NCBI GenBank assembly: GCA_003247225.1
Contig: QKAK01000045.1
Location: 1-32,856, forward strand
DNA: 32,856 nt
Reading direction: 5' to 3'
Origin: Spirochaetota bacterium
GTDB taxonomy: Bacteria; Spirochaetota; Spirochaetia; Treponematales; UBA12059
The notes under the pieces are model-generated. The model saw only the letters and a program-made list of their open reading frames with translations, made no database searches and was not told where the DNA came from. The position numbers and the translations under genes are program-made. Positions 17,694 to 26,747 of this stretch are shown piece by piece. The stretch's first letter is position 1, and each line of letters opens with the position of its first letter.

Positions 17694-19589
17694 CTATTCG
17701 TGGACGGATAGCAGTATATCGGTCTTCCAGGTCTCGTCCGCGGCCAGCTCGACGCGCCAGAGCAATAGGGTCGCGACGCCTTGACCGGCCGGCGAGCCTA
17801 CCATCGCGCACGATACGACCGCGGGCGTCGTCGTCGCCATCGCTATCGACTTGACCGTACCGACCGTCTTTATCGCCAGCTTGGCTATGGTCCCGAAGCT
17901 ATGGCCCCGCGTCGACGAGAGGGACGACGGATCCACCGATACGACGTCCGAGCCCGACGCCTCGAGCCACTCGATCCTGTCGGTGCCGAGCGACGCGTTC
18001 AGCTCGACGCCCAGCCAGAAGCGGGCGTCGCTGTCGGAGCGGTTCTGCACGCCGTAGGCGACCCTGACGACCTTCTTGTTGAACGAGTAGCGCTTGGTGA
18101 CGGCGATCGACCGCTTGGCGCCGTTCAAGCCGACGACGCCGTCCTTGGCGAAGCACAGGGTGGCGTGGTTGCCGTCGGTCAGGACCTCCTCGTACGGGTG
18201 GCTCGAGAACGGCCCTATGTCGCCGGCCCACGGCTCCAGGACGGCGTCCGGCCCCGGTTCGGCCGAATAGAGCCTATCGACGAAGCAGGCCTTCCTGGAG
18301 CGGTCCCCCTCGGGTTCCGGCGCGAACAGGTCGCAGAGGTTGCGCCTGGCCTTGAGCGCGTCCAGCTCGACGAGCACCGCCCCGCGCGGGTGCAGGTACG
18401 CGTTGAGGTCGTTGCCCTGGTAGATATATTCCTTGACGCCGTCGAAGTCTATGTCGGCCTTGACCACGCCGGGCACGAAGACGCCCTTCTGCCTGGTCGT
18501 CAGCTCGGCGTCGAGCAGGGACCTATAGGCCGCCTCGCGTATCGCCGGGTCGCCGATGCCGCCGGTCGGCGCCATCCAGTACGCGTCGCCGCACTGTCCC
18601 TTCCAGAGGTCCTCGACGGCGCTCTTCTTCCGCGACTTGTCGCCGCGGAGCTGCCCGATCAGCAGGTGGACGTAGTACATCCTCGAATAGAGCGCCGAGG
18701 ACGCGGCGTAGCGGATGATGGAGCGCCTCAGGCTGCCGCAGGCGTGCTCGGCGCCTTCGCGGGCGCTCGCCTTCATGAAGCGCTCGGAGGCCGATCCGCC
18801 GAAGTACAGCTTGCGCGTCACGCGCCTGGACTTCAGGTAGCGCGACGGCGTGGTGGTCTCCGCCTCGAGGGAATTCTTGCGGAACCAGGCGAGGGTACGC
18901 TCCATGTACAGGTCGGGCGACTCGAGCCCCGACTCCTCCCAGAGCGAACGTATCCTCTCGCCGGCTACCATCAGCACGGTCAGCTGGCTCGGGCCGGCCG
19001 CCTCGGCCGCCTCGACAAGACCGAGCGGCCTATCGAAGCTGAGGCTGCAGTCCCTCACCGGCAGCACGGTGAGGCATCGGCCCTGGTCCTCGGTGACGAC
19101 CGGGCTCGGGGCCGCGTCGTCGCGCCCCTCGGCATCCTTGAACTGACGGTCCAGCAGGAAGGTATAATCCATGCCCGACGACTGGAGGGTCGAGGCGAGC
19201 CAGGGCTCCCAGGCGTATTCGGGCAGCCAGCAGCCCCTGGGGCGCTTACCGAAGCTCTTGCGCAGGTAGGTGGTCATCAGCTCGATCTGGCCGAGCCTGT
19301 CGGAATTTGGTATCAGCGGCAGGATCGGCGCGTAGAAGCCGCCGCCTATCAGCTCGATCTGGCGCCTGGCGCTCATCTCCTCGAGGAGCATCAGGTACTC
19401 GGGATGCCTCGCCTCGAAACGCTTAAGCAGGCTGCCTGAATAGTATAGGGCGGCCTGGATCTCCGGGAAACGGTTCAGCGTCGACAGGAACGGCCTATAG
19501 CACGACTGGTAGGTCTTCTCGAACTCCGTCTCGTCGAGCCCTTCCGGGAGATGATTGTACGTCCCTAGTATGAGGTGCGTCTTAAGCAT
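17694..19589 (-). CDS. GH57-family alpha-glucan protein lacking the acid/base aspartate
   Basis: 631 residues from the ATG at 19589 (MLKTHLILGTYNHLP), with AAGGA upstream; an upstream in-frame ATG at 19622 lies within the -10 region and is rejected. The fold is that of the GH57 4-alpha-glucanotransferase / amylase-like group. A GTYNHLPEG start is followed by ELIGGGFYAPILPLIPNSDR, CWLPEYAWEP with the nucleophile Glu (E124), and C-terminal beta domains (FWLGVELNASLGT). In active relatives a DGE(K/R)-type motif supplies the acid/base Asp about 90 residues after the nucleophile. Here the sequence at 207-212 is MVAGER, so Ala209 stands where Asp is expected. The protein is therefore probably catalytically impaired, or a binding/regulatory homologue. 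No signal peptide is visible. Confidence 0.85.
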   Translation of the reverse strand: MLKTHLILGTYNHLPEGLDETEFEKTYQSCYRPFLSTLNRFPEIQAALYYSGSLLKRFEARHPEYLMLLEEMSARRQIELIGGGFYAPILPLIPNSDRLGQIELMTTYLRKSFGKRPRGCWLPEYAWEPWLASTLQSSGMDYTFLLDRQFKDAEGRDDAAPSPVVTEDQGRCLTVLPVRDCSLSFDRPLGLVEAAEAAGPSQLTVLMVAGERIRSLWEESGLESPDLYMERTLAWFRKNSLEAETTTPSRYLKSRRVTRKLYFGGSASERFMKASAREGAEHACGSLRRSIIRYAASSALYSRMYYVHLLIGQLRGDKSRKKSAVEDLWKGQCGDAYWMAPTGGIGDPAIREAAYRSLLDAELTTRQKGVFVPGVVKADIDFDGVKEYIYQGNDLNAYLHPRGAVLVELDALKARRNLCDLFAPEPEGDRSRKACFVDRLYSAEPGPDAVLEPWAGDIGPFSSHPYEEVLTDGNHATLCFAKDGVVGLNGAKRSIAVTKRYSFNKKVVRVAYGVQNRSDSDARFWLGVELNASLGTDRIEWLEASGSDVVSVDPSSLSSTRGHSFGTIAKLAIKTVGTVKSIAMATTTPAVVSCAMVGSPAGQGVATLLLWRVELAADETWKTDILLSVHE

Positions 19590-19620
19590 TCCGGAACATC
19601 CTTTATTATCATGAACGGTC

Positions 19621-19626
19621 ATTATA
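19621..19626 (-). promoter_or_regulatory. -10 box for the GH57 gene
   Basis: Consensus TATAAT on the minus strand, about 31 bases before the ATG at 19589, leaving a short leader with AAGGA. No good -35 box is seen at 16-18 bases. Confidence 0.45.
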
Positions 19627-19675: not shown

Positions 19676-20248
19676 TCAGATTGAAAGCCTCGAGAAAAAG
19701 CCGGCGTCGACCCCGGCGAAGGCGAGCGCCATCAGCGCCGCGCTCAGGAAGCGCAGGGGGGCGCCCCTGAAGGGCTCGGGCACGCGTTCGAGCTCGAGCC
19801 GCTCCATGATAGCCTCGAGGAAGCCCGTCGCCGCGACGTAGCCCAGCGCCGCCGCGGCTCCGCCTACTAGCAGGAGCCAGGTCGACGAGAACCGCGAGCC
19901 GATGGATAGGGCGACGGCGTAGAGCACCAGCGTCGTCGGGAAGAGGCCTTCGTCGTGGAGAGGCCGCGACGGCTTTCCGAGCGCGGTCCGCAAAGCCTTG
20001 AGCGCGGCGAACGCTCCGAACAGCAGGGCCGAGAACAGGATAGGCGCCAGCGATTCGAGGCCCCACGGCGATAGCAGGTACCTGAACGCCAGGCCGTGCG
20101 CCAACGAGGCCAGGGCCGCGGCGGCGAGGAAGGCGACGAGCGACGACGCCGAGAAGGCGCCGCCCTTCTTACCCGACGGAATCAGGCCCCACTGGACCAT
20201 CACGTTGCCGCCTAGGGTTAAGTAGAAGACCAAGCCTATGACGCTCAT
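19676..20248 (-). CDS. rnfA: RnfA-like integral membrane protein without cluster cysteines
   Basis: 190 residues, six predicted membrane helices. The C-terminal pattern VPEPFRGAPLRFLSAALMAL and the position after rnfE identify it as RnfA (NqrE family). In typical RnfA two cysteines, in G-I-C-P-F and T-N-C-A-V-L-G, hold a membrane [2Fe-2S] cluster with two cysteines of RnfE. Here the first motif reads GLIPS (Ile23 for Cys) and the second VLYAVAL (Tyr110 for Cys), and the protein contains no cysteine at all. The ATG overlaps the rnfE stop (ATGA). It is the last gene of the cluster; the usual next gene, rnfB, is not present, and a hairpin and the GH57 gene follow. Confidence 0.8.
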   Translation of the reverse strand: MSVIGLVFYLTLGGNVMVQWGLIPSGKKGGAFSASSLVAFLAAAALASLAHGLAFRYLLSPWGLESLAPILFSALLFGAFAALKALRTALGKPSRPLHDEGLFPTTLVLYAVALSIGSRFSSTWLLLVGGAAAALGYVAATGFLEAIMERLELERVPEPFRGAPLRFLSAALMALAFAGVDAGFFSRLSI

Positions 20249-20829
20249 GATTCCGATCCCCTCACGGCCTTGATGACGACCTTGAACGCCGCCGCGGCCA
20301 GGGCGATCAGTATGAACGCCCCGGCCGGCTGGGCGAAGATAGGCAGCAGCGAGCCGTGCTCCGCGCCGAAACGCGTCGAGACGGCGCCGGTAGCGAGGAA
20401 TTGCCTGACCGCGCCGGTCACGGCGGTCAGGAACGCGTAGCCCACGCCCCATAGGAGGCTCTCTATGGCCCGTTCACGGTCCGATACCGTCTCGGGCATG
20501 ACGCAGGCTCGCAGCACCGGGAGCGTGAATACCGACAGGAACACCCTGCCATAGGCGGCCTCGAATAGGAACGGGTCGAACAGGCGCAGCGCCGAGGCCG
20601 TCAGCGACGCGACGACCGCGGCGCCCGTCAGCGAGAACGCGAATACCGCGGGGCGACCGAGCCGGGCGGGCAGCAGCAGGGCCATGGCGCCGGCCGCGCT
20701 ATAGGCCAGGAAGAAGGCTATGCCGAGCGCGACGCCGAGCGACAGGCTATTCGAGAACACCAGGAGCGGCGCCAGCCCGGCGATCGAGGCCAAGGGCCCG
20801 GCCGGAACGCGTCCGTCGTCAATCGTCAT
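20245..20829 (-). CDS. rnfE: RnfE-like integral membrane protein with one of two cluster cysteines
   Basis: 194 residues, multi-pass. The N-terminal half-motif SIAGLAPLL corresponds to L-G-L-C-P-x-L of RnfE/NqrD, and LLWGVGYAFLTAVTGAVRQF to G-M-G-L-G-F-T-L-A-L-x-x-x-G-x-x-R-E. Ala20 stands in place of the first cluster cysteine. The second, in LRACVMPE (C109, for N-C-I-I-L-G), is kept and is the only cysteine of the protein. The start overlaps the end of rnfG by 11 bases. Identity rests on these motifs plus gene order; divergence is marked, so automated annotation may miss it. Confidence 0.75.
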   Translation of the reverse strand: MTIDDGRVPAGPLASIAGLAPLLVFSNSLSLGVALGIAFFLAYSAAGAMALLLPARLGRPAVFAFSLTGAAVVASLTASALRLFDPFLFEAAYGRVFLSVFTLPVLRACVMPETVSDRERAIESLLWGVGYAFLTAVTGAVRQFLATGAVSTRFGAEHGSLLPIFAQPAGAFILIALAAAAFKVVIKAVRGSES

Positions 20830-21319
20830 CTTCAGCCTCCGTCCTGCCCCGCTCGAGCGCGGCCAGCGTCTCGAGCGTATCGGTGACGAGCGCCTTGAGG
20901 CTCGCGTCGAGCGTCGAGGCGTCGGCCCGGGCGGCGCCCTTACCGGCGCCCGAGAACAGCGCGGCGAGCCGCTTCGAGTAGGCGTCGCCGGAATCGCCGA
21001 GCGGGCGCAGGTCCAGTATGGACCCGTCGCCGTCGACGCTGGCCGCGGCCCTGAATTCGCCGTCGGGATAGCGCGCTACCACCAGGTAGGCCGCGGGCTC
21101 CCCCCGCTTGTCCACCCGGCCGAGCACGCTCCCCTCTCGTAGGGTCGTCCAGTCGGCCTCACCGCGCGCGGACGGGACGAGCGCCTCGCTCGCCGCCTTG
21201 GCCAGCTGCCTGGCGGCCTGCCCGGAGGCGTAGGCCGAGGCGAAACCGGAGGCCGCGACGATCAGCGCCATCGCGGCCGCCAATATCCAGGTATCCCTGG
21301 TCTTGTCTGATACGTCCAT
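20819..21319 (-). CDS. rnfG: RnfG-like protein lacking the flavin-attachment threonine
   Basis: 166 residues: one N-terminal membrane anchor (about 10-30) and an exported domain. Normal RnfG carries FMN covalently on the last Thr of an S/T-G-A-T motif near the C-terminus. The aligned stretch here is DASTLDAS (133-140), with Leu-Asp-Ala where Gly-Ala-Thr is expected, so Ala139 replaces the flavinylated Thr. The upstream strand pattern (YLVVARYPDGEFRAAASVDGDGSILDL) fits the FMN-binding domain. Assignment depends on this and on the position between rnfD and rnfE. One base separates it from the rnfD stop. Confidence 0.68.
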   Translation of the reverse strand: MDVSDKTRDTWILAAAMALIVAASGFASAYASGQAARQLAKAASEALVPSARGEADWTTLREGSVLGRVDKRGEPAAYLVVARYPDGEFRAAASVDGDGSILDLRPLGDSGDAYSKRLAALFSGAGKGAARADASTLDASLKALVTDTLETLAALERGRTEAEDDD

Positions 21320-21320
21320 G

Positions 21321-22409
21321 CTAGGCGACCCCCCCGCGCTTCAGCCGTAGCCCCGTCGCGGCCTTCTCGATGAACGGTACCGTCACGTTCATGACGAGCA
21401 CGGCGTACGCGACGCCTTCGGTGAAGGCGCCCCAGCGCCTGAACACGAAGCTGAGCGCGCCTATCGAGGCGCCGTACAGGAGGCAGGCCCCCCGCCCTAC
21501 CGGCGAGCTTACGGGATCGGCCGCCATATAGAAGGCCACGAGCAGGAGGCTGCCGCCGGACATGGCGAACATGGCGTCGCCGGCCAGGAAGCCCTCGCCC
21601 GGCAGGCCGGTGCCGAAGAGCCTGGCTAGGAGCCCGAAGACCGCGAGCATGGCTAAAGGTATCTCCAGCTTGATCAGCCTGAGGCTGACGAGGACGATGG
21701 ACCCGAGGGCCACCGCCAGGAGCGCGCTCTCGCCGAGGGCGCCCGGCTTGAAGCCTATGATCAGGTCGATGTAGCCGTCGGGCAGCCTCGCCGACAGCCG
21801 CGAGAACAGAGAGTCGTTCAGGAAGCCGGTCACGGCGCCGTCGATGGCAGACAGCGGATAGGAGGCGCCGCGGAGAGCGTCCATCACCTTGATGTCCAGC
21901 CCGCCGGCCAGGCCCTTGGCGAAGGTCAGCGGGGTCGCCGCGGTGACGCCGTCGACGCCGGCTACGAAGCGCGGCAGCACGTACTCGCGCATATGGGCGG
22001 GCCAATTGGCGTAGGCGAACGCCACTCCGGCGAGCGCCGGATTCATCCAGTTAGCCCCGAGCCCGCCGAAGGCGGCCTTCACTATCAGTATGGCGAAGGC
22101 GGCCGAGGCTACGGGAACGTACCAGGGCGCGCCCGGGGGCATGGCCGCGGCTATGAGCAGGCCCGTCAGGACGGCGCTGCCGTCTCCCAGGGTCCAGCGC
22201 CTCGTCAGCGCCGAGGCCGCCGCCTCGGCGACCAGCGCGGCCGCGACGGCGGTCAGCCAGGTAACGACGGCGATCCGCCCGTAGAGCACCGACGACCACA
22301 GCGCCACCGGGACGAGCGTCGCCGAGCAGATCCACGCCGCCTTGGCGCTCGTCTTCCAGTCGTGGATGAACGGCGGATACGAGCGCAGCTCGAGCTTGGT
22401 GCAATTCAT
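21321..22409 (-). CDS. rnfD: RnfD-like membrane subunit with flavin-attachment site
   Basis: 362 residues, about ten membrane segments. GGLGANWMNPALAG and GFKPGALGESALLAVALGS are the two signature loops of the RnfD/NqrB family. The covalent-FMN motif, normally D-x-(S/T)-G-A-T-P-L, reads DGVTAATPL with the acceptor Thr at 159 retained and only Gly157 changed to Ala. Of all the subunits encoded here this one keeps the most complete redox signature. The true start is the ATG at 22409 (MNCTKLELRS), which overlaps the rnfC stop (ATGA); a longer in-frame extension runs antisense-like through rnfC and is not real. Confidence 0.9.
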   Translation of the reverse strand: MNCTKLELRSYPPFIHDWKTSAKAAWICSATLVPVALWSSVLYGRIAVVTWLTAVAAALVAEAAASALTRRWTLGDGSAVLTGLLIAAAMPPGAPWYVPVASAAFAILIVKAAFGGLGANWMNPALAGVAFAYANWPAHMREYVLPRFVAGVDGVTAATPLTFAKGLAGGLDIKVMDALRGASYPLSAIDGAVTGFLNDSLFSRLSARLPDGYIDLIIGFKPGALGESALLAVALGSIVLVSLRLIKLEIPLAMLAVFGLLARLFGTGLPGEGFLAGDAMFAMSGGSLLLVAFYMAADPVSSPVGRGACLLYGASIGALSFVFRRWGAFTEGVAYAVLVMNVTVPFIEKAATGLRLKRGGVA

Positions 22410-23698
22410 CGCCGTACCTCGTTCTGGCGGGCTTCGTCGAAATAGCGGACGAGCGGAATACGCGATCGGCAGGCGTAGGAGCACGAGCCGCACGAGGAGC
22501 AGCGGCCGAGCCCGGCCGCCAGGGCGTCGTCGGGCCGGCCCGAACGGAGCAGCTTGAGCAGGCGATACGGCGACAGCCCCTCCGGGCAGGCGTCGACGCA
22601 GTCGCCGCAGCGCACGCAGGGACGCTCGGGGGCGGACTTCGTCTCCTCCGGGGACAGGGCCAATACGGCTCGCGTGGTCCTGGTGACAGGCGCGTCTAAG
22701 TCGGCGGCCGCCCTTCCCCTGAACGGCCCGCCGATCACTATGGTCTCCGGATGCCCCGAGAAACCGCCGCATTCCTCTATCAGGTCGCCTATAGGCGCGC
22801 CTATCCTGGCCTTGAGTATCGCCGGCCGCTTGATCGAGCCGCCGCCTACGTAGACGTACTGCTCGATATGCGGCTTGTTCGATACGACGGCCTCGTGCAG
22901 CGCCACGAGCGTGCTCGGCTCGATGATGAACAGCGTCCCCGGATCGGCGATATCCATCGCCTCGGCTATCTGCCCGGGCAGGTCCTGCGGGAAGCGACGC
23001 CGGAAGGGCTGGATCGCTATGTCCAGCTCGCTGCGGGCGGCCAGCTCGCGGAGCGGCTCGAGCGTCGCGGGCTCGATGCGCTCGTCGACGGCGAACATGA
23101 TGCGCGCCGGCAGGGCCATCCTGGCGGCGATGGCGCAGCCGTCGACCACGTCCTCGGCCCGGAGCGCCAGCAGCTCCTCCTCGGTCCGGCGGTACGGATC
23201 CATCTCGAGCGCGCTGACGACCATCACGAAGCCGGGCGCGTCCGACCGCTCCGATAGGATCTCGTAGAGCGGCTCGCCGCTCGACACCCTGACGATGCCC
23301 TTGTCCTGGACTATATGGGATATATCGGCCTTGTTGAGTGACTTCCAGAGGTAGCGCTCGGGGCGCTTGCCGAGCATGCTGAACGAGCCCTCGAGCGATA
23401 CGAGTATGGCCTTCGAGTCGAAGCCGCCGGACGTCCTAGTCGTCTCGATGCGCCGCACTATGCCCGGGATGGGCGAATGCACGTTCGACGACGCCTTGCC
23501 CGCCGACCTGGCTAGGAGCTGCCCCTCGCGAACCTCCTGGCCGACCGACACCACGGGTATCGGCTCGACCGCGCATCGGTGCTCGCGGAGCTGGACGATC
23601 GCGTTCATCGGTAGGAAGGCGTTCTCTATGGGGCCAGTCTTGAACGGGGCGCGATGGTCGACTGGCACGCCGCCGCGCTTGAATCCGCGAGCTCTCAT
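22406..23698 (-). CDS. rnfC: RnfC-like subunit with [4Fe-4S] motifs but no nucleotide-binding loop
   Basis: 430 residues, the normal core length. The N-terminal GG-x-x-x-x-x-x-K pattern, the biotinyl-like hammerhead (VSVGQEVREGQLLA) and VHSPIPGIV are preserved. Two [4Fe-4S] motifs are intact: CVRCGDCVDACP (C361, 364, 367, 371) and CSSCGSCSYACR (C400, 403, 406, 410). The region normally reading G-I-V-G-x-G-G-A-x-F-P-T, which binds FMN and NADH, reads GIVRVSSGEPLYEIL (134-148). The following N-x-x-E-C-E-P-Y is SALEMDPY. NADH oxidation by this subunit is therefore doubtful. First gene of the rnf run, with an AGGA ribosome site and a promoter about 75 bases upstream. Confidence 0.9.
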   Translation of the reverse strand: MRARGFKRGGVPVDHRAPFKTGPIENAFLPMNAIVQLREHRCAVEPIPVVSVGQEVREGQLLARSAGKASSNVHSPIPGIVRRIETTRTSGGFDSKAILVSLEGSFSMLGKRPERYLWKSLNKADISHIVQDKGIVRVSSGEPLYEILSERSDAPGFVMVVSALEMDPYRRTEEELLALRAEDVVDGCAIAARMALPARIMFAVDERIEPATLEPLRELAARSELDIAIQPFRRRFPQDLPGQIAEAMDIADPGTLFIIEPSTLVALHEAVVSNKPHIEQYVYVGGGSIKRPAILKARIGAPIGDLIEECGGFSGHPETIVIGGPFRGRAAADLDAPVTRTTRAVLALSPEETKSAPERPCVRCGDCVDACPEGLSPYRLLKLLRSGRPDDALAAGLGRCSSCGSCSYACRSRIPLVRYFDEARQNEVRR

Positions 23699-23815: not shown

Positions 23816-25174
23816 TCAGCGTCCACGGGCCTTTTTATCCGAGGCCGGCTCGATCGACGACGGCCCTCGCTCGCGGAGGGCGGCGATAGACTCGGCGTAG
23901 GCCCCGTTAGACGGCGGCGGCGACGATCGGTCCTCGGCCGGCGAGCGTATCATCCGCCCGTCGCTCTCGGCGTAGCGGTAGGCGGGATCGTACCGGCTCC
24001 TTCCCCAGGCCGCGTCGCCGATGCGCCCGTAGGTAAGCGCCTCCTGGTACGCCAGGTGCTCGGCGAGCAGCGTCTCGGCGTCGGTCCCGTCATCAACGCC
24101 GCGCTGGTCCCTGGAAAGCGCGTAGGCGGGCCGGAGCGACGCGTCGCCCGAGCGATAGGTCCCGGTCGACGTGAACGGCTGCAGGACGGCCATGGCCAGC
24201 GCGGGCGCCAGCGCGGCCTTGGCCACCGCGCGCGACGCCCGCGTCGCCCGGGCCCCGGACAGCGCAACGAACCGAGGCGCCTCGTGTAGCCGTCTCGACG
24301 CCAGGGCCTTGACCAGCCTCGGATAGAGCATCGCCGATAAGGCCGACAGGGCCGCGGAGGCCGCCAGGTACGGCAGGCTCTGGCGTTCCGACGCGACGAC
24401 GGCGGAGAGCGGGACGGCTATCGCGAGGCCGTACGGCCAGGTCGCGTCGAAGATAGCTCGCGAGCGGTCGCGGCCTCGGGCCGGCGCGCACGCGGCGGCG
24501 CGCTGAGCCGCCGCGAAGGCCGCGGCCAGCGCTACGAACAGCGTGGAGGCTCCCAAGGCGCCGGGCGCGAGGAGCGGCGAGAACGCCAGCGCGGCGACGA
24601 GCCTGGCGGGCCATCCGCGACGCGGCCTCATGACGAGGAGCCACAGGGCGAACGCCGCGGCGGGGATCCAGAGGATCGGGGACGAACGCGCCCCGGAGCG
24701 GGCGTCCCAGGCCCATGCGGCGCCGAGCGACGATAGGGACCGGGCCGCGGCCTCGTCCCGTTCCGGCGTCGGCCCGGGCAGGTAGATGACCGTCCAGGCC
24801 GAACCGTCGGGGCCGATCGCCTTAAACCGCGAGGCCAGCTCGTCGAGGAAGGGCGTACGGCGCGGATCGGAGTCGCGTGAACGGCGAAGGGCGCCGTCGA
24901 GCGGGACGTCGGCGACGCGGGAGAAGTCGCTGAACGGTACCGTGACCCTCGAGGCGGCCAGCGCGTCGTCGATGCCATGCGCGGAGAGGGCGGCTAACGC
25001 GCTCCGCTCGTCCGCCTCGGGCGCTATGGCCACGGCGCGCATCGAGGCGCTCGAAGCCAGTCGCGACGAGGAGCCCCCGCGGCCGCCGCCGGAGCAGGCG
25101 AGCGAGCCCAGGCAAGGCGCGCAGATCAGCAGGGAGGCGGCTATGGATGCGGCTAGACGCGCGTACCGGCTCAC
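23816..25174 (-). CDS. Unknown lipoprotein-like membrane protein upstream of rnf
   Basis: 452 residues; no family recognised. The N-terminus is a lipoprotein-type signal ending LGSLAC (Cys27), followed by a Gly/Ser-rich stretch. A soluble region (about 45-165) includes FKAIGPDGSAWTVIYLPGP. Five or so hydrophobic segments follow, between 167 and 330 (for example ILWIPAAAFALWLLVM, YGLAIAVPLSAVVAS). A hydrophilic tail (340-452) has SGDASLRPAYALSRDQRG and AYQEALTYGRIGDAAWGRS. The combination of a lipobox and later membrane helices is unusual. It starts three bases after the DUF212 stop and is followed by rnfC after 117 bases, so it could be an assembly or partner protein for the divergent Rnf complex (inference). 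Confidence 0.65.
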   Translation of the reverse strand: MSRYARLAASIAASLLICAPCLGSLACSGGGRGGSSSRLASSASMRAVAIAPEADERSALAALSAHGIDDALAASRVTVPFSDFSRVADVPLDGALRRSRDSDPRRTPFLDELASRFKAIGPDGSAWTVIYLPGPTPERDEAAARSLSSLGAAWAWDARSGARSSPILWIPAAAFALWLLVMRPRRGWPARLVAALAFSPLLAPGALGASTLFVALAAAFAAAQRAAACAPARGRDRSRAIFDATWPYGLAIAVPLSAVVASERQSLPYLAASAALSALSAMLYPRLVKALASRRLHEAPRFVALSGARATRASRAVAKAALAPALAMAVLQPFTSTGTYRSGDASLRPAYALSRDQRGVDDGTDAETLLAEHLAYQEALTYGRIGDAAWGRSRYDPAYRYAESDGRMIRSPAEDRSSPPPSNGAYAESIAALRERGPSSIEPASDKKARGR

Positions 25175-25177
25175 GCG

Positions 25178-25657
25178 CTACAGGGTGTTGACGGCCAGGG
25201 CTATGAAGAAGCCCATCAGGCTTCCGGCGACGACCTGCGGGAAGGTATGCCCGTTGATCTCCTTGACCGGCTTGAACGGTATATGGAAACGCTTCGAGAG
25301 CCTGGAGCCGAGCGAGTTGAGGGTCTTGGCCTGCACGCCCGCCGCGCGCCTGACGCCCATCGCGTCCCGTATCACCACCAGGGCGAAGAAGAACGACAGC
25401 GCGAAGACGTCCGAGCCTATGCCGCTGGAGAACGCTATCGAGGTCGATATGGCTATGACCAGCGCGCTGTGGCTCGAGGGCATGCCGCCGGTCTTCCATA
25501 GGAGCGTGGAGAATATTTCATGGATACCGGCCTTGCGGTTCGTGAAGACCACGACGAGGGCCTTGGCGAACTGCGCCATGAAGAGGCTCAACGCCGCCGA
25601 CAGGAACACGCTATTCCTGAGTAAGGCGCTAACGAACAGTACCCGCTGGTGTTCCAT
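25178..25657 (-). CDS. Divergent PAP2 family protein (DUF212)
   Basis: 159 residues from the ATG at 25657 (MEHQRVLFVSALL). The diagnostic motifs of the DUF212 / divergent PAP2 family are present: KTGGMPSSHSALV (P-S-S-H), RDAMGVRRAAGVQA and INGHTFPQVVAGSLMG. There are four to five membrane segments. The family is distantly related to acid phosphatases and vanadium haloperoxidases; a lipid phosphate substrate is probable but unproven. The frame extends upstream to 26122 only across the antisense strand of the pseudouridine synthase. A TTGACA promoter ends seven bases before this ATG. It is the first gene of the unit that continues into the unknown lipoprotein-like gene and, possibly, rnf. Confidence 0.88.
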   Translation of the reverse strand: MEHQRVLFVSALLRNSVFLSAALSLFMAQFAKALVVVFTNRKAGIHEIFSTLLWKTGGMPSSHSALVIAISTSIAFSSGIGSDVFALSFFFALVVIRDAMGVRRAAGVQAKTLNSLGSRLSKRFHIPFKPVKEINGHTFPQVVAGSLMGFFIALAVNTL

Positions 25658-25664
25658 CGCGAGA

Positions 25665-25693
25665 ATTTCAAGTATAATCGCTCCTCTTGTCAA
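25665..25693 (-). promoter_or_regulatory. Promoter for the DUF212 gene, predicted leaderless
   Basis: On the minus strand: consensus TTGACA (25688-25693), a 17-base spacer, TGAAAT (25665-25670, 4/6), then seven bases to the ATG at 25657. TATACT (minus, 25671-25676) is an alternative -10 but has no suitable -35. Confidence 0.55.
25673..25678 (+). promoter_or_regulatory. -10 box for the pseudouridine synthase gene
   Basis: Consensus TATAAT, 55 bases before the ATG at 25734. The -35 (TGTTCC, 17 bases upstream) is poor. The box overlaps the divergent promoter of the DUF212 gene, so the two may compete. Confidence 0.4.
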
Positions 25694-25733
25694 GCCTATT
25701 CGAGCCGTTTCACGGGAGTCGCTGAGAACAACC

Positions 25734-26747
25734 ATGGCGTACAGCACCAAGCGCTTTATAATCGGCCCGGACGATTCGGGCAGGCGCGCCGACCGCGTCG
25801 TGCGCTCGCTCCTGTCGGCGATGCCGCTCTCGGCCGTATACCGCCTGTTCCGCGACGGCGCCGTCCGGGCCGGAGGCCGCCGCATCGACGGCTCGTCCAG
25901 GCTCGAGGCGGGAGCCGCCCTCGATATCCGCCTACCCGATACCGTAGGGGCGCCGGAAACGAGCGCGGCGCGGGAAGCGGCCTCCGCCGATCCGCGGCTC
26001 GCCGACGGGCGGGCCAGGCGCTTCTCGGAGATCATACTGCTCGAGACGCCGGACCTCGTCGTCGTCAATAAGCCGCGGGGACGATTGACCCACGGACCGG
26101 ACGGAGTCGACGAGGACGCCAAGGCCTATTTCGCGGACCGCATGGCCCGGTCCCTCGCCTTCGCGCCGGGCCCGCTCCACAGGCTCGACCGCAACACCTC
26201 CGGAGCCTTGGTCGTATCGGCCAGCCAGGCCGGCGCCGTGGCCTTCAGCGAGGCGCTCCGGGCCGGCCTGGTCGGCAAGCTATACCTCGCCTTGCTCGGC
26301 GGCGAGCTAGCTGGCGCGGAGCGTTGGATCGACCGCCTGAGCCGCGACGGCCTCAAGAGCCGCGTCGGCGACGACGGCGCCGCCGCCGAGGCCGAGGCGA
26401 TACCCGTCGCGGCGCGCGGAGGCATGACGCTCGCGGTCATACGATTAGGCACCGGGCGCACGCACCAGATACGCGCCCAGGCCGCCTCCCGCGGCCTCGC
26501 CCTGGCCGGCGACGCGAAGTACGGCGGCATGCCGCTGCCGGGCGGCTATATCCTGCACTGCGCGATGCTCGACCTGCCGGCCCTGCCCGGCGGCGTCGGG
26601 CCGTTACGCGTCGAGGCGCCGCTGCCGCCCCGGGCCGCCGACGCGCTGCGCTCCATCCTCGGGCCGTCCTGCGTCGAGGCGGCCTCGGCCGCCCTGAGCG
26701 AGGCCTTGGCTCGCGCGCCGCGAGCGAGCTACGACCAAACGAGCTAA
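25734..26747 (+). CDS. RluA-family 23S rRNA pseudouridine synthase (RluC/RluD type)
   Basis: 337 residues from the ATG at 25734 (MAYSTKRFII). An S4 RNA-binding domain occupies about 15-70 (AVYRLFRDGAVRAGGRRIDG). The catalytic motif HRLDRNTSG lies at 149-157, with the nucleophilic Asp at 152. GRTHQIRAQAASRGLALAGD is the second conserved motif. LVVVNKPRGRLTHG is the first. The enzyme isomerises specific uridines in 23S rRNA; whether at RluC or RluD positions cannot be told by eye. The frame is open far upstream (to 24786), but that stretch is antisense to two other genes and is not coding. The ribosome-binding site is poor. Confidence 0.92.
   Translation: MAYSTKRFIIGPDDSGRRADRVVRSLLSAMPLSAVYRLFRDGAVRAGGRRIDGSSRLEAGAALDIRLPDTVGAPETSAAREAASADPRLADGRARRFSEIILLETPDLVVVNKPRGRLTHGPDGVDEDAKAYFADRMARSLAFAPGPLHRLDRNTSGALVVSASQAGAVAFSEALRAGLVGKLYLALLGGELAGAERWIDRLSRDGLKSRVGDDGAAAEAEAIPVAARGGMTLAVIRLGTGRTHQIRAQAASRGLALAGDAKYGGMPLPGGYILHCAMLDLPALPGGVGPLRVEAPLPPRAADALRSILGPSCVEAASAALSEALARAPRASYDQTS

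Follow-up and report, generated by a model that had tools for sequence, protein, structure and literature searches.

We analysed a 32,856-nucleotide stretch of DNA from a Spirochaetota bacterium of the order Treponematales (contig QKAK01000045.1, positions 1 to 32,856; hereafter the window), the minus strand of which carries a variant rnf gene cluster. Five core Rnf homologues lie between positions 19676 and 23698 in the order C-D-G-E-A, with ATGA overlaps at the C/D and E/A junctions, and the coordinates confirm the gene order and tight overlaps given in a preliminary description of the locus. The RnfC-like subunit (430 residues; 22406-23698) matches TIGR01945 at 248.6 bits against a cut-off of 245.95, and the RnfD-like subunit (362 residues; 21321-22409) matches PF03116 at 262 bits. 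The RnfE-like (194 residues; 20245-20829) and RnfA-like (190 residues; 19676-20248) subunits are matched weakly by Pfam and NCBIfam models. The Rnf/Nqr membrane family (PF02508) scores 27.7 bits for E and 21.4 bits for A, which matches TIGR01943 with an E value of 7e-8, below the cut-off of that model. The RnfG-like subunit (166 residues; 20819-21319) has no Pfam match. Its AlphaFold2 model (predicted local distance difference test score, pLDDT, 81.7) comprises one predicted membrane helix and a small domain, for which the best Foldseek matches are the RnfG chains 8rb9_G, 7zc6_G and 8ahx_G (probability 0.99-1.00, with E values of just 3e-3 to 6e-3). Because RnfG chains are the best fold matches of this model, the protein most likely represents a shortened form of RnfG that has no flavin site. 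The operon is longer than C-D-G-E-A and runs, on the same strand, from its leading gene, U452 (23816-25174), which encodes a membrane protein without a Pfam or NCBIfam match, to a GH57-like gene (17694-19622; PF03065, 99 bits), which is the last. A DUF212 (divergent PAP2) gene lies upstream, also on the minus strand (25178-26122; PF02681, with the conserved part in the C-terminal half of the open reading frame); it is a marker of the common locus and is not claimed as a component of the complex.

Cofactor ligands were read from alignments with canonical Rnf and Nqr copies of the same order, and most of the redox sites are gone. In the window RnfC, the sequence SSGEPL stands in place of the GGAGFP loop (in a loop region that begins at residue 134) and the second flavin mononucleotide (FMN) motif, N..E.EP, has become S..E.DP. 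Both FMN/NADH motifs (GGAxFP and N..E.EP) are present in all 13 canonical copies and in all six copies from intact operons at the same genomic position (the 'intact in situ' loci). All eight cysteines of the two [4Fe-4S] clusters are retained and aligned (residues 361, 364, 367, 371, 400, 403, 406 and 410). Replacement of the glycine loop and retention of both cluster motifs, as read by eye in the preliminary description, were thus borne out. RnfA contains no cysteine at all and RnfE a single one, C109, which lies close to but off the canonical column and varies in sister species; the metal centre that these subunits share in Rnf takes two cysteines from each. The SGAT covalent-FMN motif is absent from the window RnfG and a Pfam search gave no FMN_bind profile match; the loss of this motif had been called correctly, but in our alignment the target Thr falls opposite Asp138 and not Ala139. 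RnfD, by contrast with these losses, keeps its flavinylation motif (DGVTAATP, with Thr159, as first described) and the ion-path residues of the GGLGxNxxNP, GES and xDxxSSP motifs. Misalignment of the ligands can be ruled out, as the losses recur in approximately 100 loci and in 29-row alignments.

In the solved Rnf complex, electrons pass from ferredoxin through RnfB, the RnfA/E metal, the RnfG FMN, the RnfD FMN, riboflavin and the RnfC clusters to the RnfC FMN and NAD+ (PMC9588780). On these alignments the variant RnfC is no longer able to hold FMN/NADH in the known way, and the cluster is without rnfB, as had been noticed at the outset. With no RnfB, and with an RnfC that could not bind its nucleotides in that way, the window complex is predicted from its sequences to be incapable of ferredoxin:NAD+ ion pumping by the established route. 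The rest of the genome was searched for rnfB and for a second, canonical rnf set. No rnfB reaches the model cut-off (best score 43.5 against 68.7 bits), and an RnfB encoded in trans was set aside as a candidate, with the reservation that absence is uncertain in an assembly that is 95% complete; nor does any second rnfC score above its cut-off in this assembly. The genome carries a separate canonical Nqr set (contig C217). Genus-mates G046 and G042 carry, in addition to the variant locus, a canonical rnf operon with rnfB, and canonical Rnf or Nqr is encoded elsewhere in many of the genomes that have the variant cluster.

The distribution of the variant was then assessed with a profile (A1) built from 29 variant RnfCs and a sample of 197 genomes of the order. 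Matches were found in all 197 genomes, 109 of them at 396 bits or more and approximately 169 at E < 1e-80 (our own count). For reference, canonical RnfCs of these spirochaetes score 218-250 bits, other canonical copies at most 349, intact in situ copies 355-450 and variants at least 396. Because the intact in situ scores overlap the variant range, nineteen more loci were scanned, including low-scoring ones of the Treponema family, and in all nineteen (two of which are contigs already counted) the loop is absent and both [4Fe-4S] motifs are kept. In total there are approximately 100 distinct variant loci, in every one of which the GGAxFP loop is missing and the eight RnfC cysteines are present. 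The variant RnfCs have a subfamily motif of their own, PIGDLIEECGGF, and invariant residues that canonical copies are without (among them E58, G104, F106, W118, G304 and the IEECGGF motif). When named genomes were scanned for GxLIEECGGF, 80 loci were returned, nearly all from spirochaetes. In most of the loci examined, neighbour analysis recovered the arrangement U452-C-D-G-E-A-(B)-GH57. The stripped cluster is therefore kept across nearly the whole order, Treponema pallidum included, and the window complex, together with U452 and the GH57-like protein, is shown to form an order-wide gene unit. No description of a stripped Rnf derivative was found in the literature searched, which covers few subscription journals.

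The genes are also maintained by selection. The pairwise ratio of nonsynonymous to synonymous substitution rates (dN/dS) against the closest relative is 0.09 for C, 0.15 for D, 0.15 for G, 0.13 for E and 0.13 for A, comparable with the neighbouring GH57 (0.08) and Mur ligase (0.14) genes, U452 having 0.39; against other relatives, the values for the five rnf genes are mostly 0.06-0.46. The five rnf genes are under purifying selection, with ratios of 0.09-0.15 to the nearest relative instead of the values near 1 that would have signified decay. Taken with the retention of the cluster in approximately 100 loci and the invariant residues peculiar to the RnfC subfamily, this favours the second of two readings offered in the preliminary description (a decayed Rnf or a repurposed one), and we consider with considerable confidence that the complex is a conserved Rnf descendant which has been repurposed.

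The history of the losses could be followed at a single genomic position. Six intact in situ loci (L154, L155, L157, L161, L164 and L206) still have the RnfC loop and, in the subunits recovered, the [2Fe-2S] cysteines. An intact RnfB is encoded between A and GH57 in five of them, L154 being a truncated contig, and U452 lies upstream of a complete rnfCDGEAB-GH57 set in L155, L157, L161 and L164 (in L206 it was not recognised). In a combined RnfC and RnfD tree these loci branch basal to the variants; together with the gene order, this shows the stripped unit as a descendant of a complete U452-rnfCDGEAB-GH57 operon; the intact operons are apparently the ancestors of the stripped form. Loss of the RnfC loop is placed on one branch (support 0.93). 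RnfB subsequently persists in some lineages with a changed first motif, is shortened in others (L158, L163 and L185), and is absent from the window's genus and from most Treponema-like loci read, and the [2Fe-2S] cysteines, the RnfG SGAT motif and the RnfD Thr were lost in several separate lineages. Trait calls for RnfG and RnfB were made by regular expression and are approximate, with sequences read for key loci only. On this reconstruction a single loss of the RnfC loop was followed by repeated losses of RnfB, of the [2Fe-2S] site and of the two covalent-flavin sites, the exact number of losses being uncertain as several deep branches of the tree are weakly supported. Throughout the series the RnfC cluster cysteines are unchanged. 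In two loci (L162:8365-12931 and L167:8983-13609) G, E, A and B have gone and U452, RnfC, RnfD and GH57 remain; the persistence of C and D alone between the flanking genes points to C-D as the core. In three others (L153, L156 and L169) RnfG is missing from its place between D and E but the E and A genes persist, with all four of their cysteines retained in L153 and L156. The intact in situ RnfDs of L155, L157 and L206 have Ser at the position of the flavinylated Thr (e.g. AASPLGF), such that Ser flavinylation, or loss of the RnfD flavin, may predate the stripping.

The two partner genes flank the complex throughout most of this series, and U452 leads the operon across the order in stripped and intact loci alike (in most loci). 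The AlphaFold2 model of U452 (pLDDT 78) has a small N-terminal alpha/beta domain and gave no significant fold match in the PDB. The GH57-like protein shares its fold and, in the window's genus, the nucleophile Glu with the GH57 4-alpha-glucanotransferase 1k1w (Glu135 of the window aligns to E123), but differs in that the conserved acid/base DDG segment reads VAG; we presume the position of the acid/base Asp in the reference. Treponemes, T. pallidum among them, and family f5 have lost the nucleophile too. The GH57-like protein has thus probably lost catalysis, in parallel with the Rnf sites.

The stripped unit is also found in a genome of 1,139,633 bp (G013), the ApbE of which matches the PDB 4ifu chain at every one of 295 residues. 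We take 4ifu to be T. pallidum ApbE and name the genome on the strength of this match. Its locus is orthologous to that in the window, with the order RluA / DUF212 - C-D-G-E-A - GH57 and the same neighbours; PF02681 (DUF212) is matched at L092:9522-10013, as in the window reading frame. E and A were assigned here by in-family profile and synteny, the Rnf-family models alone being insufficient. The RnfC-like protein (L092:7902-9446) has a long insertion at the position of the FMN/NADH loop. This genome has a single RnfD homologue and encodes only the stripped form of Rnf; no RnfB and no RnfD or RnfG flavin motif was found in it, FMN_bind proteins being encoded away from the locus. A flavin-dependent RNF pump has been proposed for T. 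pallidum (PMC7512555; PMC10194888). That redox-pump model contrasts with sequences in which covalent-flavin sites, [2Fe-2S] sites and RnfB are all wanting. As judged from its predicted ligands, the known electron path is unsupported for the T. pallidum rnf genes, in conflict with the published proposal. No paper naming TP0151 together with TP0152 was found in the literature searched.

What remains in all variants is the RnfC cluster domain together with RnfD, both ends and the middle of the electron path having been lost; the only universal cofactor site is the set of RnfC [4Fe-4S] cysteines. The explanation that we favour overall, and think probable, is that of an Rnf descendant cut off from both of its substrates with a working core of RnfC and RnfD. 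RnfC would be docked on RnfD, which would form the body of a membrane transporter or gate, and the two [4Fe-4S] clusters of RnfC would serve it as a redox element on the cytoplasmic side. In the solved Rnf the RnfC clusters take electrons from the RnfD riboflavin (PMC9588780), and RnfD resembles ammonium and urea transporters (PMC12174285). The GGLGxNWxNP motif of RnfD is near-invariant in the variants (N127 in 96%, N130 in 99%) and the Asp/Glu of its riboflavin/ion motif is present in nearly all of them; the remaining ion-path residues are retained in the window's genus. A transporter or gate formed by RnfC and RnfD is favoured since the RnfC cluster domain and RnfD are what remains, the two dock in solved Rnf and the RnfD motif is kept. 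In the window's lineage the RnfC clusters may still exchange electrons with the flavins of RnfD. Several observations weigh against this interpretation. Treponemes (T. pallidum included) and most of family f5 have lost the RnfD flavinylation segment, and the ion-path residues GES and PEG are lost or changed in treponemes and family f5, which argues against one common mechanism of redox-gated transport; the proposed partner U452 is missing from the T. pallidum locus; and the RnfC clusters could be purely structural. Redox gating as the specific mechanism is hence a tentative proposal, possible but on present evidence the less probable outcome. The early suggestion that the complex uses only the RnfC iron-sulphur centres and the RnfD flavin fits the window's genus but fails as a general mechanism.

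If the clusters merely stabilise the RnfC fold, the complex could be a non-redox envelope scaffold, serving to keep U452 and a GH57-like protein without catalysis in place at the membrane. Cofactor sites have been lost serially while the subunits persist, the GH57-like partner is without an acid/base motif and, in family f5 and the treponemes, without a nucleophile as well, and the neighbours are of envelope type (DUF212/PAP2, with a Mur ligase in many genomes). Set against this, eight invariant cysteines would be costly for stability alone when NqrA is cofactor-free (PMC12174285) and is proposed to have shed its cluster cysteines yet kept a structural role (PMC4014512), and RnfD keeps channel-like motifs; we judge a scaffold rather unlikely. 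A truncated electron wire, fed at the RnfC clusters by soluble ferredoxin or flavodoxin and discharging by way of RnfD (riboflavin and FMN) to an acceptor outside the cytoplasm, would account for the RnfC clusters and the RnfD Thr159 motif kept in the window's genus, and an ApbE flavin transferase is encoded. It is difficult to reconcile with deletion of the RnfD flavinylation segment in most of family f5 and in treponemes, T. pallidum among them, and with a periplasmic partner, RnfG, that has no flavin motif, and is unlikely. A working Rnf pump, using flavodoxin or an RnfB from elsewhere, is the published model for T. pallidum, and some genus-mates do encode RnfB elsewhere. That RnfB belongs to a separate canonical rnf operon (G046, G042, G022 and G026), T. 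pallidum has none, the window genome has none above cut-off, and the ligand alignments contradict such a pump, the RnfC FMN motifs, [2Fe-2S] cysteines and RnfG motif having gone; we regard it as very improbable. That a redundant rnf operon is simply decaying, for which lost ligands and the canonical Rnf or Nqr elsewhere in many genomes might speak, is ruled out for practical purposes by dN/dS far below 1, open frames in approximately 100 loci and order-wide retention that extends to the 1.14 Mb T. pallidum genome.

The RnfC-RnfD core that we favour can be set beside the known relatives. The variant resembles Rnf in its C-D-G-E-A order, subunit homology, the two RnfC [4Fe-4S] clusters and, in the window's genus, the RnfD Thr motif; it differs in lacking RnfB, the RnfC FMN/NADH loop, the RnfG FMN motif and the [2Fe-2S] cysteines of RnfA and RnfE, and in the addition of the U452 and GH57-like genes. 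In Nqr, which arose from an rnf operon minus rnfB, the membrane relay survives and RnfC has turned into NqrA, a subunit free of cofactors (PMC4014512; PMC12174285). Na+-NQR is thus similar in its origin from an rnf operon minus rnfB and in having an RnfC homologue (NqrA) without redox sites, but the variant keeps the RnfC [4Fe-4S] clusters and loses the membrane relay, the reverse of Nqr. Membership of Nqr can be excluded from the eight RnfC cysteines, the TIGR01945 score above cut-off and the absence of the A/E cysteines, NqrF not having been searched for near the locus. Because the losses are reversed relative to Nqr, the complex would be a distinct derivative of Rnf. With chances that we see as nearly balanced, it may be a second major Rnf descendant besides Nqr, found throughout this spirochaete order, in which the trans-membrane electron chain was wholly abandoned and only cytoplasmic Fe-S clusters are left on a transporter-like RnfD core.

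Rnf and Nqr are usually seen as a fixed redox chain, and here a natural series leads from an intact to a near cofactor-free complex in one genomic place, showing the order in which a redox pump can be taken apart and yet stay worth keeping. The complex is conserved and retained even in a 1.14 Mb genome. The finding bears on the energy metabolism of T. pallidum, for which the published RNF pump hypothesis becomes directly testable; if the complex is indeed such a second descendant of Rnf, what has been taken for the energy pump of the syphilis agent would be something other than a redox pump.

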